From: Chromatiales bacterium
Lineage (GTDB): Bacteria > Pseudomonadota > Gammaproteobacteria > Granulosicoccales > Granulosicoccaceae
DNA: 33,493 bases
Assembly: GCA_020631335.1 (NCBI GenBank)
Contig: JAHDHK010000025.1
Coordinates: 1 to 33,493 of the forward strand
Reading direction: 5' to 3'
Every line of letters starts with the position of its first letter. The first letter of the stretch is position 1. This document shows, in pieces, positions 27,251-32,002 of the stretch. Made by a program: the position numbers and the translations under genes. The notes below the pieces were generated by a model. It was not told the DNA's origin, ran no database searches, and worked only from the letters and a program-made list of their open reading frames with translations.

Positions 27251-27359
27251 CCGGAAACATAGCCTGGAACAGACGAATTAGAATTCAGGCAGGAAAAAGT
27301 GATTACGACTAACGACTAACTCCAACTACCAAAAGAGACTACTGCAGAAAATAATCATC

Positions 27360-27384
27360 TGCCCCGTTATCAGCTAACGGGGCA
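27360..27384 (-). terminator. Terminator of the DctP fusion gene
   Basis: TGCCCCGTTA (27360-27369) and TAACGGGGCA (27375-27384) form a perfect 10-bp stem with a 5-nt loop. Read on the minus strand it comes about 85 nt after the DctP-fusion stop codon and is followed by the T-rich GATGATTATTTT. Confidence 0.7.
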
Positions 27385-27469
27385 ATCATCACGCTATGCT
27401 TTTCTGGTCAGCGCTTCGAACTCTACTGCAATGCGATTAGCGCAAAACACCAAAAAGCACGACTTTTGT

Positions 27470-29317
27470 TTAATAACTACACTGGCTGCCGTCAGGCAGC
27501 AATAGCACACCGTCGCCGGTACGAACCCCCAGATCCAGGCTTTGTGGACAAGGCTTCAGACCATTGGCACTTTGCTGATTCATCGGCACATGCCTGACCG
27601 TGCGGTAGGTATGATCAAAAACGGTGACCAGACCTCTGCCAGACAACAATTGAAACGCATCGCCCACCGGTATGCCACTGATTTTCTGTTGAATAGGCGG
27701 CAGCTTTAAAGCGTACACCCGCTTGGCGGTCTGATCGTCGGTGAGCAGCTGGTAGCCGATATACTTTGACAAATTGGCAATCGTAGAACCCACAGTGGCC
27801 ACACCTTCAAGGTCCCACTCCACCAGTGTTTGCAAAGGATCGGCATTGTAGGCGTTACCACCCTCTCCTCGGGGTACACCAAAGTAGTTCACCCCCTGAT
27901 CGCCGACAGTATCGACAAAAGGTTCTGCCATTTGCTTAGGGGCCACCGCGAGTGCCGGTGCATTCGCGGGTATTTCCTGACCTGCCAGACGATCGTCAAC
28001 AAACAATGCCGCTATACCACCTTTTATCAGCCCTTCCCCACCGGCAACGGCTACCTGATTGGCATCGGCTAACACAGGTTCTGACACAGGCTCTGCTACC
28101 AGTGGCTCTGTCACTGCAATCGCAGGCGCAGTGTCGAGCAGTGGCAGAGTGTTGTTGCTGAAAGTATCCGCACTGCTTTCCGGAGCCAGAGAGGCATCTT
28201 TTTTATTAAACGCATACGTGCTCAGTATTTCGTCTTTCTTTGCCCGCTCCTGTTCTTCGGTCGACGGCGCAAGACTGACCTGAGCCGGTGTGGCACCGGT
28301 CATCAGCGCCTGTTCCGGGTTCTCACCGGTGAGCGCAATTTTCACCAGCGAGTAAATTTCTCTGCCCGGTCGCCCATTGTTTTCCTGTTCATTAATCCAT
28401 TCCATAGCGGCAGGCTTTTCTACCCGATCTCTGAAATAGTTAAGCTCAAGCTCATTAAAGGTAACCTTCTCTATATTGAGTTTGTCCAGCACCGGCCCCC
28501 AGGACTCGCGCATGTTGAACTCGTAGTGACCGATATAGTAGTCGAGTGCTTCGTTAATAGAGCCATAAAGCGCATCGCGATGGGCTGCACTGAGCTGACT
28601 CACCGCATCAATGTTGGCCACCACCGGACAGTTCACTGTGCCGGGGTTCAGGTTGGTCGTCCACCAGTTAGCGCTGGCCACTGTACCGAACGACATGTGC
28701 GCGTGCGGGGCAAATGCGACAGCGTTGATCTGTCCGGTTTCAAGTGCCTGCCTGACCTCGGTGGCAATGATCGGACTGGGGTTTGCACCCAGCGCGTCCA
28801 TCGCCTTGCCGATACCGCCGGTCGCACGGACGTTTAGCCCGGCAAGCTGCATTAATGACAACGGCGCATCACCAACACCGATCAGGTTATATTGCGGCAG
28901 TGGCGAAGGCATTAATGCAATTGCATTCCACTTTCTAAAATCTTCGCGCACTGCCGGGTGGCGATAAAGCCACTGACTGATCGTGCGCTCTTCATCGAGC
29001 GTACTCACTCCTAGAAACGGCAATTCGAGCACGGTAATCGAAGGGTTCTTCTCTTTGTGGTAGCCCGCACAGAACTGAGCCATTTCAAACTGACCGGCGG
29101 CTATGCCTTCGAGATTTTCCCGGGGCTTGGCAAGCCCGCCGTAGGAGAGGTTCAAGATGAATTCTCCGTTAGTTTTGCGAGCAACCAGCTCCGAAAGCTT
29201 CTCGACATGCTCAGTGAAAGCGCGTCTCTTCCCCCAAAGCGAAACATCCCAGGTCACCTGCTCGGCAAAACCGGCGATCGGAAAGAGCAGTAAAATTATT
29301 ATTCTTATGTATCTCAT
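27470..29317 (-). CDS. TRAP-type (DctP) binding protein fused to a PilL/TcpQ/STN-like domain
   Basis: The 615-aa protein has a signal peptide (about 1-18, ending GFA). Residues about 20-330 are a DctP-type binding protein: LSYGGLAKPRENLEGIAAGQFEMAQF, then LNVRATGGIGKAMDALGANPSPI, then VRQALETGQINAV. A Pro/Ala/Glu-rich linker (about 335-495) follows. Residues about 497-578 resemble the PilL N-terminal/TcpQ/STN type: TVGSTIANLSKYIGYQLL, VYALKLPPIQQ, IPVGDAFQLLSG, and TVFDHTYRTVRHV. A C-terminal tail with two Cys ends the protein. No DctQ or DctM gene is nearby, so it is not part of an ordinary TRAP importer here. Location is periplasmic. Confidence 0.87.
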   Translation of the reverse strand: MRYIRIIILLLFPIAGFAEQVTWDVSLWGKRRAFTEHVEKLSELVARKTNGEFILNLSYGGLAKPRENLEGIAAGQFEMAQFCAGYHKEKNPSITVLELPFLGVSTLDEERTISQWLYRHPAVREDFRKWNAIALMPSPLPQYNLIGVGDAPLSLMQLAGLNVRATGGIGKAMDALGANPSPIIATEVRQALETGQINAVAFAPHAHMSFGTVASANWWTTNLNPGTVNCPVVANIDAVSQLSAAHRDALYGSINEALDYYIGHYEFNMRESWGPVLDKLNIEKVTFNELELNYFRDRVEKPAAMEWINEQENNGRPGREIYSLVKIALTGENPEQALMTGATPAQVSLAPSTEEQERAKKDEILSTYAFNKKDASLAPESSADTFSNNTLPLLDTAPAIAVTEPLVAEPVSEPVLADANQVAVAGGEGLIKGGIAALFVDDRLAGQEIPANAPALAVAPKQMAEPFVDTVGDQGVNYFGVPRGEGGNAYNADPLQTLVEWDLEGVATVGSTIANLSKYIGYQLLTDDQTAKRVYALKLPPIQQKISGIPVGDAFQLLSGRGLVTVFDHTYRTVRHVPMNQQSANGLKPCPQSLDLGVRTGDGVLLLPDGSQCSY

Positions 29318-29637: not shown

Positions 29638-31098
29638 TTACGGTTGAGAGTAACCGGGTAACTCAACAACATAACTGTCAACAGAACCCGAGTCATACCA
29701 GTCCGACCCGAACAAAATTCTGGTGCCTGAAGGGCTCAAGGTGGCGTGCGGCTCACCAAAGTAAGGCTCATAGCCACCGTTGAGCGCGTTTTTACCGAAA
29801 GAACGATGATGTGCCAGCCGACAGATCACAGGCTCACTGCCGGCAGTTTCGGCAAGGTAGATCTCGGACAACAATGGTGGTGCTAACCGGTTACCGGCCA
29901 GGTAGCGCATTTGCGGCATTGACCCGATACTGGACATAGCCACCCTGCCGGGGTGAGCCACAGACAACGCAGACATATGCGTACTACTGGTCGGATACGG
30001 GTAGCCGCTCTGTTGCCCGATAATATTGCGGCACTCCCCACTGACAAGATTGTGTTGCACCAAATGCCCAACACCCTTATCCGGATCGCCGGAACACCCG
30101 CGAGGGCTTGACCCGAACGCCACCTGATACAACGCTGCCTGCCCGGCAGCGGTTTGCCCCAGACTCGAATGCTCTATGGACGACTTCATATCCGGCTTTA
30201 CAGATAACGGCAATAACTCCTGATCAAGCACTGCCCCCTGAAACCAGAATAATTGTCCCGTCGGGGTCGGCACAGGTGCAGTGCGTGCCTCCCATGGTGT
30301 GCCTTCACCAACCGCCTGCACTGTGACTTCATCTGTGCTTACACGATACGAAAATATCACCGGTTGATCATTATCTGCCCGACAGCGAAAACCGAACCAG
30401 TCATCATTGTAAGACTGCATATGCACATCACTGCCGGCAACCGGGAGTGAACTGCCACACCACCGGGTAAAGTCTGCAATAACAACCGATTCATCGGTGT
30501 TGACGTTGAGCTTTTTAAACTGACCGAAATCACTTGCGCCGGCACTAACAAAATATAATTCGTCGGGTTGGCTATGACTCCAGAACACCTCTTCAATATC
30601 AGACGGTCTTATGTTCAGCCGACGGATCAATTCGTAAGAGTGGCCATCTCTCAACTCATGGCCGGTGTATGCGCTGGAACTGACATACAACAATAACAAC
30701 GATTCGTCAGCATTCCATGCCTGCATGGTGCTGTACGCAGGCTTTCTCACCTCTCCGACATTACTTGAAGAAATACGTACAACCGTAGCGCCAAGCGCTG
30801 GATCGATATACCGCACACCGGGTTCGGGTTTAGCCAGCTTTTTTATTATGGTTTGGCGGCTATCCGCTACACCGGCACTGCAAATACCCACCGTGGATAC
30901 ATTGATCGACTTTTCACCCGGCAACGACACCGCAGCCGCCGGCAATTCGTTTGGCTTCAATAAGGTGCCAGCCTTGCCTGCCATACAACCGCTTATCAAA
31001 GCCGGTATCACACCACAGCCGATGGCAGAGCGTACAAACTTAAGTGCGAGCCTGCCGCAACACGCCTCCGTGAGCCGGCACGGTTTATTCAATGTCAC
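29638..31098 (-). CDS. Putative lipoprotein with a beta-propeller-like body
   Basis: The likely start is GTG at 31098, giving 486 aa. It places a lipoprotein signal at the N-terminus (FVRSAIGCGVIPALISGC, Cys of LISGC as lipidation site) and begins 16 nt after the deacetylase stop. The frame is open further upstream, but that part lies within the deacetylase gene. The mature protein is rich in repeated strands with Trp and Asp turns (YSTMQAWNADESLLLLY, EEVFWSHSQPDELYFV, HATLSPSGTRILFGSDWY), as in WD40/TolB-type or oligogalacturonate-lyase-type propellers. No family is certain. It is the last gene of a three-gene run. Confidence 0.72.
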   Translation of the reverse strand: MTLNKPCRLTEACCGRLALKFVRSAIGCGVIPALISGCMAGKAGTLLKPNELPAAAVSLPGEKSINVSTVGICSAGVADSRQTIIKKLAKPEPGVRYIDPALGATVVRISSSNVGEVRKPAYSTMQAWNADESLLLLYVSSSAYTGHELRDGHSYELIRRLNIRPSDIEEVFWSHSQPDELYFVSAGASDFGQFKKLNVNTDESVVIADFTRWCGSSLPVAGSDVHMQSYNDDWFGFRCRADNDQPVIFSYRVSTDEVTVQAVGEGTPWEARTAPVPTPTGQLFWFQGAVLDQELLPLSVKPDMKSSIEHSSLGQTAAGQAALYQVAFGSSPRGCSGDPDKGVGHLVQHNLVSGECRNIIGQQSGYPYPTSSTHMSALSVAHPGRVAMSSIGSMPQMRYLAGNRLAPPLLSEIYLAETAGSEPVICRLAHHRSFGKNALNGGYEPYFGEPHATLSPSGTRILFGSDWYDSGSVDSYVVELPGYSQP

Positions 31099-31114
31099 AG
31101 CAAAGCCCGCCGCT

Positions 31115-32002
31115 TCACGATAAAACCGGTTTCTTATAATAGGGAAGATGCTCAACCCGAATCGCTTCATTATCATCCTGATGTTGCTTGCGAACGTACG
31201 CAGCAATCTCATGCAATGGCGCGAACCAGACATCTCCTTTTTCCAGCACGCTCTCCAGCCACTTTTCCACCTGCTTCCATCGCGCAGGTCTGCCGGTAAG
31301 AAACGGATGCCAGATCGCCATCCAGAATCCGCCGTCTTCATACTGTGCGTCGAACTCTTCCCAGAACGGCTGCACACCCACCGAAGGTGCGGCAACCGGC
31401 ATTAAGTAACCGATCTCATCGTAGTGTGCGAACTGCGGCCAGTCATCACTGCCCCAGTGTACCGGCAACTCAACCAGATCTCCGGCAGCGGTCTTCATCA
31501 TGTACGGAATATCATCTGCCATCAACGAGCTGTCATAGCTGAAATTATGTTCAACCAGTAAATCTATCACCGCCTGATTGACGTTATACACCGGCGCACG
31601 ATACCCGAGCGGCGTATTTCCGATCACACTTTTGTGTGATGCCAGCGCTCTCTCAAACCACTCGCGCTGTTCATCTGCCGAATGACTGGTCGGATCTTCA
31701 TGCAGATATCCGTGATGACCGATTTCGTGGCCATCCTTCAGAATAGCTTCCATCGCCTCAGGGTATTGCTCAACGCACCAGCCGGGTGCAAAAAAGGACT
31801 GCTTTAACCCTAAGCGCCGGTACGTTTCGAGTATGCGCGGCACCGCAACCGTGGGGCCGTACTTCCCCATACTAATCGGATACAAACGATCGTGTCCGTC
31901 CTTCGGACGCGATATATGTATGAGGCTGTCCGCGTCTACATCAAACGTAATTGCACAGGCACATCTGGCACCGTTCGGCCACGTGATTGCTCGCCTACTC
32001 AT
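31115..32002 (-). CDS. Polysaccharide deacetylase-fold hydrolase (PuuE/PgdA type)
   Basis: The 295-aa protein has the NodB homology fold: a first motif ITFDVDAD (Asp21, Asp23), the metal-binding block HEIGHHGYLHEDP (His92, His96, His97, His101), and a GYRAPVYN motif. The HHGYLHEDP pattern is that of the PuuE/HpPgdA-like group, which includes cofactor-independent allantoinase and cyclic imidases as well as peptidoglycan deacetylases. There is no signal peptide, so a cytoplasmic C-N hydrolase acting on a ureide or imide is more likely than a cell-wall enzyme. It lies 55 bp downstream of the DUF1989 gene and 16 nt upstream of the lipoprotein start. Confidence 0.87.
   Translation of the reverse strand: MSRRAITWPNGARCACAITFDVDADSLIHISRPKDGHDRLYPISMGKYGPTVAVPRILETYRRLGLKQSFFAPGWCVEQYPEAMEAILKDGHEIGHHGYLHEDPTSHSADEQREWFERALASHKSVIGNTPLGYRAPVYNVNQAVIDLLVEHNFSYDSSLMADDIPYMMKTAAGDLVELPVHWGSDDWPQFAHYDEIGYLMPVAAPSVGVQPFWEEFDAQYEDGGFWMAIWHPFLTGRPARWKQVEKWLESVLEKGDVWFAPLHEIAAYVRKQHQDDNEAIRVEHLPYYKKPVLS

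Follow-up and report, generated by a model that had tools for sequence, protein, structure and literature searches.

In a gammaproteobacterium of the Granulosicoccaceae, a solute-binding domain of the TRAP transporter type (DctP) is joined in one polypeptide to a C-terminal domain that resembles the N0/STN domains of secretin systems, and the same protein occurs in two further species of the genus. We see an even chance that this fusion binds a solute without importing it and is held at a secretin or pilus-type machine of the outer membrane. Below, the window means the whole stretch of DNA that was analysed, 33,493 nucleotides of contig JAHDHK010000025.1 (assembly GCA_020631335.1).

Architecture of the fusion gene

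The gene occupies positions 27470-29317 of the minus strand (Table 1). The preliminary description had proposed one 615-aa frame composed of a signal peptide, a DctP-type binding protein, a proline/alanine-rich linker and a further domain. The frame is open throughout, from its ATG to the stop codon at its end; it begins with a Sec signal sequence, matches PF03480 (E = 1.6e-14) and contains a linker rich in alanine together with proline, valine, leucine and glutamate (25 alanines and 12 prolines in 136 residues), so that all of these parts were recovered. Because the signal peptide has no lipobox cysteine, a soluble periplasmic protein is expected. Downstream, the nearest gene is EamA, and the hairpin that follows the fusion gene weakly suggests a single-gene transcript. 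A polysaccharide deacetylase gene (31115-32002) is also among the neighbours in the window. Directly upstream lies a 585-aa open frame (29638-31395) without any Pfam match, which probably starts further downstream because its front overlaps the deacetylase gene.

Table 1. Positions of the fusion gene parts (window coordinates) and of related units at other loci (locus:coordinates).
Feature	Position	Strand	Basis or remark
Sec signal peptide, residues 1-19 (MRYIRIIILLLFPIAGFAE)	29261..29317	-	sequence; alignment with L036 and L037
DctP (TRAP solute-binding) domain, residues 20-330	28328..29260	-	PF03480; AlphaFold model
Arg164 in motif GLNVRATGG	28826..28828	-	alignment of DctP homologues
Tether, residues 331-489	27851..28327	-	pLDDT; identity between three species
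PilL/TcpQ-like domain, N0/STN fold, residues 490-580	27578..27850	-	TIGR03748; fold matches
C-terminal tail, residues 581-615, with Cys590 and Cys613, ending DGSQCSY	27473..27577	-	alignment
Stop codon	27470..27472	-	
Terminator-like hairpin 3' of the fusion gene	27359..27385	-	4 such sites against 2.8 expected by shuffling
Tad pilus operon	L098:317-11179		last two genes found: LysM-like protein, then DctP protein with tether
Two-gene unit, DctP (339 aa) and LysM/PilL/DUF2059-like	L046:6799-10437; L047:5218-8679; L049:577-4002; L050:6772-10199		
OmpA-family gene	L048:10136-11269; L051:8952-10151; L055:2174-3370; L046:14282-15628	opposite to LysM/PilL-like gene	

A TRAP-type binding domain without a cognate-type permease

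The PF03480 match covers residues 32-300 and scores 54.3 bits, against a Pfam gathering cut-off of 23.4. When the DctP part of the AlphaFold model was searched with Foldseek, the best match was 4p47 (E = 2.9e-18; 922 matches at E <= 0.001), and the best 50 of these 922 are solute-binding proteins, nearly all named TRAP, so that the domain has the TRAP binding fold. Arg164, in the pair V163-R164, is present in all 10 other aligned DctP homologues. One study reports that an arginine selects carboxylates in TRAP binding proteins (PMC4646407); by analogy, Arg164 is likely the carboxylate-binding arginine, equivalent to that of SiaP. Gene neighbourhoods gave no guess at the ligand: on Roseobacter plasmids, the unfused relatives are accompanied by DctQM and by no telling enzyme, and one of them is preceded by genes for an ATP-binding protein and a sigma-54 regulator. 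Two long DctP frames in other genomes, of 1108 aa (G134) and 1158 aa (G054), were examined as possible fusions and rejected as upstream DNA read through into ordinary DctP genes.

That no DctQ or DctM gene lies near the fusion had been pointed out before, and none is present among the ten Pfam-scanned genes of the window, the other open reading frames being judged by position only. In unfused relatives, the DctP gene is followed by DctQ and DctM (L038-L040 and L042-L045) or by DctQ at a contig end (L041). With the DctM of genome G018 as query, cognate-type DctM proteins are found at 72-82% identity in G035, G188 and G236; across the three genomes that carry the fusion (the window's own, G000, together with G001 and G009) this type is absent, the best match being 35-39% identical. 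The fusion is thus without the cognate DctQ and DctM genes of a TRAP tripartite system. The same DctP clade also includes orphan genes in other genomes (L146, L147 and L151), two of the three with a cognate-type DctM elsewhere.

Could the protein still be part of an importer? Its N0-like domain might merely station the binding protein close to a point of entry in the outer membrane, and the loaded protein would then serve a non-cognate DctQM pair encoded elsewhere. Delivery of this kind is possible in principle because G000 contains many other DctM matches (28 to PF06808, a number that includes fragments of the same gene), as do the other fusion genomes; the DctP part is strongly conserved and keeps Arg164, which also speaks for it, and an OmpA-family barrel gene that recurs near related genes in four loci (see below) is consistent with an outer-membrane station. 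TRAP binding proteins, however, usually act with their own QM pair, the DctM type that matches the fused clade is missing from all three genomes, and a receptor fused to an outer-membrane docking domain would shuttle poorly. We consider import by this route unlikely.

Conservation of the fusion in three species

Searching for the same two-domain order and its neighbours, we found the protein in G009 (L036) and G001 (L037), the two further species of the genus, at 67-70% identity. No neighbouring gene is conserved across the three genomes: the flanks are MatE and GST in L036, an aminotransferase and a DUF1554-like gene in L037, and EamA in the window. The segments have diverged to different degrees, with identities among the three species of 83-85% for DctP, 69-70% for the PilL-like core and 36-41%, with indels, for the tether. 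Nonsynonymous divergence is low, with a dN of 0.10-0.12 in the DctP segment and 0.21-0.27 in the PilL-like core, whereas synonymous sites are close to saturation or past it. This pattern suggests that purifying selection acts on both halves.

These rates bear on a structural reading, in which the DctP fold would no longer act as a receptor but as a spacer or a module that binds other proteins, the PilL-like domain being the working part. The solitary position of the fusion gene and the orphan DctP genes of its clade would fit such a role, but DctP is the slowest-changing segment of the protein and has kept its arginine, and we think this reading distinctly improbable.

Among 369 genomes drawn from the class, only the window's own has a match to the domain in a frame exceeding 371 aa, and the absence of the fusion elsewhere refers to this sample together with 48 genomes of the family, which also make up the sample for the order. 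Relatives in named genomes come from one short-peptide pattern scan, which is not exhaustive and can have missed some; the genomes with the fusion or its relatives are mostly draft, multi-contig assemblies.

A tethered domain of the N0/STN fold

In a model of the whole protein built from a 20-row alignment, both ends are confident and pLDDT is below 50 over most of residues 342-475, a tether of about 140 residues that is predicted to be mostly disordered. Behind it, residues 492-574 match TIGR03748 (conj_PilL) with E = 1.3e-6 and 28.5 bits, below the curated NCBIfam cut-off of 64.15 bits, and the PilL proteins of two integrative elements (L052 and L115) likewise fall below it. For PF10671 (TcpQ) and STN, Pfam returned zero matches to the 615-aa protein at E up to 10. 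Nothing significant emerged among PDB chains searched by sequence with a profile of the domain, so that only the fold search was informative.

The domain was modelled separately from a 37-sequence alignment, with a core pLDDT above 90. Foldseek matches to this model are weak yet consistent (best E = 5e-3), and structural comparison gives Z scores of 9.4 for DotD, 8.6 for EscC N0, 7.8 for BfpG, 7.4 for PilQ N0, 7.3 for GspD N0, 6.5 for Xanthomonas VirB7 and 6.2-6.3 for the signalling (STN) domains of FecA and FpvA; the model thus has the N0/STN fold. Phage and contractile-injection hub proteins score similarly, since the fold is widespread, and it does not by itself name a partner. The C terminus had been described as PilL-, TcpQ- or STN-like. 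This stands for the fold, shared with DotD, BfpG, secretin N0 and FpvA/FecA, and for PilL in sequence at a score below the cut-off; as for TcpQ, the Pfam profile gave no hit while the fold matches BfpG, a protein of that kind. Together, the results support an N0/STN-like domain that by sequence is nearest PilL2 and that, among solved secretin partners, resembles BfpG and DotD.

LysM/PilL-like paralogues and a relative in a Tad operon

The C-terminal domain recurs, in the same genus, in proteins of 670-860 aa with FimV-LysM-like, PilL-like and DUF2059-like regions. Six of their genes are full-length (L046-L051) and one is partial (L055). A weak DUF2059 match was found at the rear of both proteins that were scanned, and the one scanned with NCBIfam begins with a region that matches FimV-core (LysM); the remaining proteins align to these across most of their length. 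Four of the six full-length genes (L046, L047, L049 and L050) lie 24-51 bp behind a co-directional gene for a 339-aa DctP protein (PF03480, E = 3.9e-34 in L046). This two-gene unit is conserved in four species of the genus, with no DctQM pair directly adjoining, and a partial copy stands at a contig end in G002. On the DctP tree, the 339-aa proteins lie far from the fused DctP, so that two different DctP groups are tied to the same kind of domain. In four loci, a gene of the OmpA family (assigned by Pfam in L046 and by homology in the others) also lies close to the LysM/PilL-like gene and is encoded on the other strand.

Is the C-terminal domain instead a recently captured piece of an integrative-element PilL2, in a protein that still works in that transfer system? 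TIGR03748 is its closest family model, and its tail, with the pair of cysteines, aligns with the tails of the PilL-type proteins of such elements (L052, L053, L054 and L115). G000, however, has no PilL-type genes other than the fusion and the LysM type. On the domain tree, the fused and LysM-type domains fall on one side of a branch with support 94/94, just under the starred level, and a grouping of the fused domains with the PilL proteins of L052 and L115 was rejected (p-AU 0.002). We regard such a capture as very improbable. Scarcely credible is a functionless chance fusion or an assembly chimera joining two genes, for although all genomes involved are multi-contig assemblies, the identical join with different flanks in three species and the low dN of both halves rule against it.

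Beyond the genus, the fusion is most closely related to a 444-aa protein of a Robiginitomaculum sp. metagenome-assembled genome (L098, JALZUP010000214.1). Its DctP part is about 61% identical, the DctP tree places it as the sister of the fused proteins (support 100/100), and behind DctP it continues into a sequence similar to the start of the fusion tether. Its frame ends without a PilL-like domain, about 425 bp before the contig end. Its gene closes the part we found of a Tad pilus operon that encodes CpaB, a secretin, TadA with FHA, TadB, TadC, a TPR protein that we read as TadD-like, a LysM-like protein and the DctP protein. The LysM-like protein, encoded directly before the DctP gene, matches FimV_core (1.9e-5), and its tail resembles that of the window protein (KAGFQLLTLSDGSKCIY against RTGDGVLLLPDGSQCSY; a fraction of 0.0005 of shuffles was as good). 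A BLAST query suggested that the L098 genome lacks DctM, but the Pfam family picks up one clear copy, which lies well away from the Tad operon. The genomes with the fusion (G000, G001 and G009) yielded no Tad-like secretin, so the Tad link concerns the relative only.

Comparison with known systems

The fusion combines features that are known separately. It shares with TRAP DctP proteins (PF03480, SBP family 7) the domain, the fold, the signal peptide and the conserved arginine, but it lacks cognate DctQM and adds a C-terminal tether and an N0-like domain. With PilL2 (conj_PilL) of PFGI-1 class integrative elements it shares sequence and the Cys-Cys tail; it differs in scoring below the curated cut-off and in being joined to DctP, and none of its three loci lies in an integrative-element transfer cluster. 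TcpQ and BfpG, the secretin partners of type IVb pili (PF10671; 9u5s), are likewise non-lipidated periplasmic proteins with an N0-like fold, but the fusion has no adjoining type IVb pilus operon, nor the Pfam TcpQ match. DotD of the Legionella Dot/Icm system and the N0 domain of Xanthomonas VirB7 share its fold and, unlike the fusion, belong to lipoproteins that are outer-membrane core subunits of type IV secretion. The paralogues resemble FimV/HubP and other LysM-type pilus secretin helpers in carrying a FimV-core-like LysM region, which is absent from the fusion. Finally, BctC of Bordetella is a solute-binding protein that acts in regulation and not in transport alone (PMC5812351); it works through a sensor kinase of a two-component system, whereas the partner of the fusion would be an outer-membrane machine. 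No fusion of DctP to a PilL-like domain was found in the literature searched, and open-access texts held nothing on point about DctP with PilL or about binding proteins with secretins.

Proposed role

We envision the fusion as a soluble periplasmic protein with two jobs and a long flexible tether between them. The DctP domain would close on a small organic acid, and the C-terminal domain would attach to a secretin or pilus-type machine in the outer membrane by binding its ring or one of its subunits, much as TcpQ and BfpG do with pilus secretins, and so keep the DctP domain at that machine. The bound solute would then report, or be presented, at the machine; since a cognate permease is lacking, the fusion protein itself would not import it. 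We infer the docking, its partner, ligand binding and the sensing output. The TCP secretin depends on TcpQ to be stable and to reach the outer membrane, and BfpG is needed for the formation or stability of the BFP secretin multimer (PMC4971541); DotD, which resembles secretin N0 and has the N0 fold, helps to place DotH (PMC2951367). By this likeness we expect a secretin or a comparable ring to be bound by the C-terminal domain. Candidate partners are GspD, PilQ, MshL or another, because G000 encodes these three secretins and a Tad-type secretin was not seen. Its GspD (L215:4693-7554) is 953 aa long, whereas the model has 600 positions, and it extends about 300 residues past the match.

The suggestion made at the outset, of a ligand-sensing envelope protein rather than an importer, is supported as a reading of these data, with sensing as its conjectural part. 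The links seen in the fusion, the paralogues and the Tad operon indicate that DctP, LysM-like and PilL-like modules have been joined repeatedly. More tentatively, and with rather less confidence than we place in the role of the fusion itself, DctP, LysM-like and N0/PilL-like modules, fused or adjacent, may form a ligand-responsive complex at secretin and pilus machines, independent of TRAP import, in which a small organic acid controls the machine or is captured there. Solute-binding proteins are almost everywhere taken as parts of importers. If the reading as a tethered, non-importing module is true, a dissolved nutrient would have a direct route by which to influence pili or secretion machines; the same reading offers a ready explanation for some of the orphan DctP genes.
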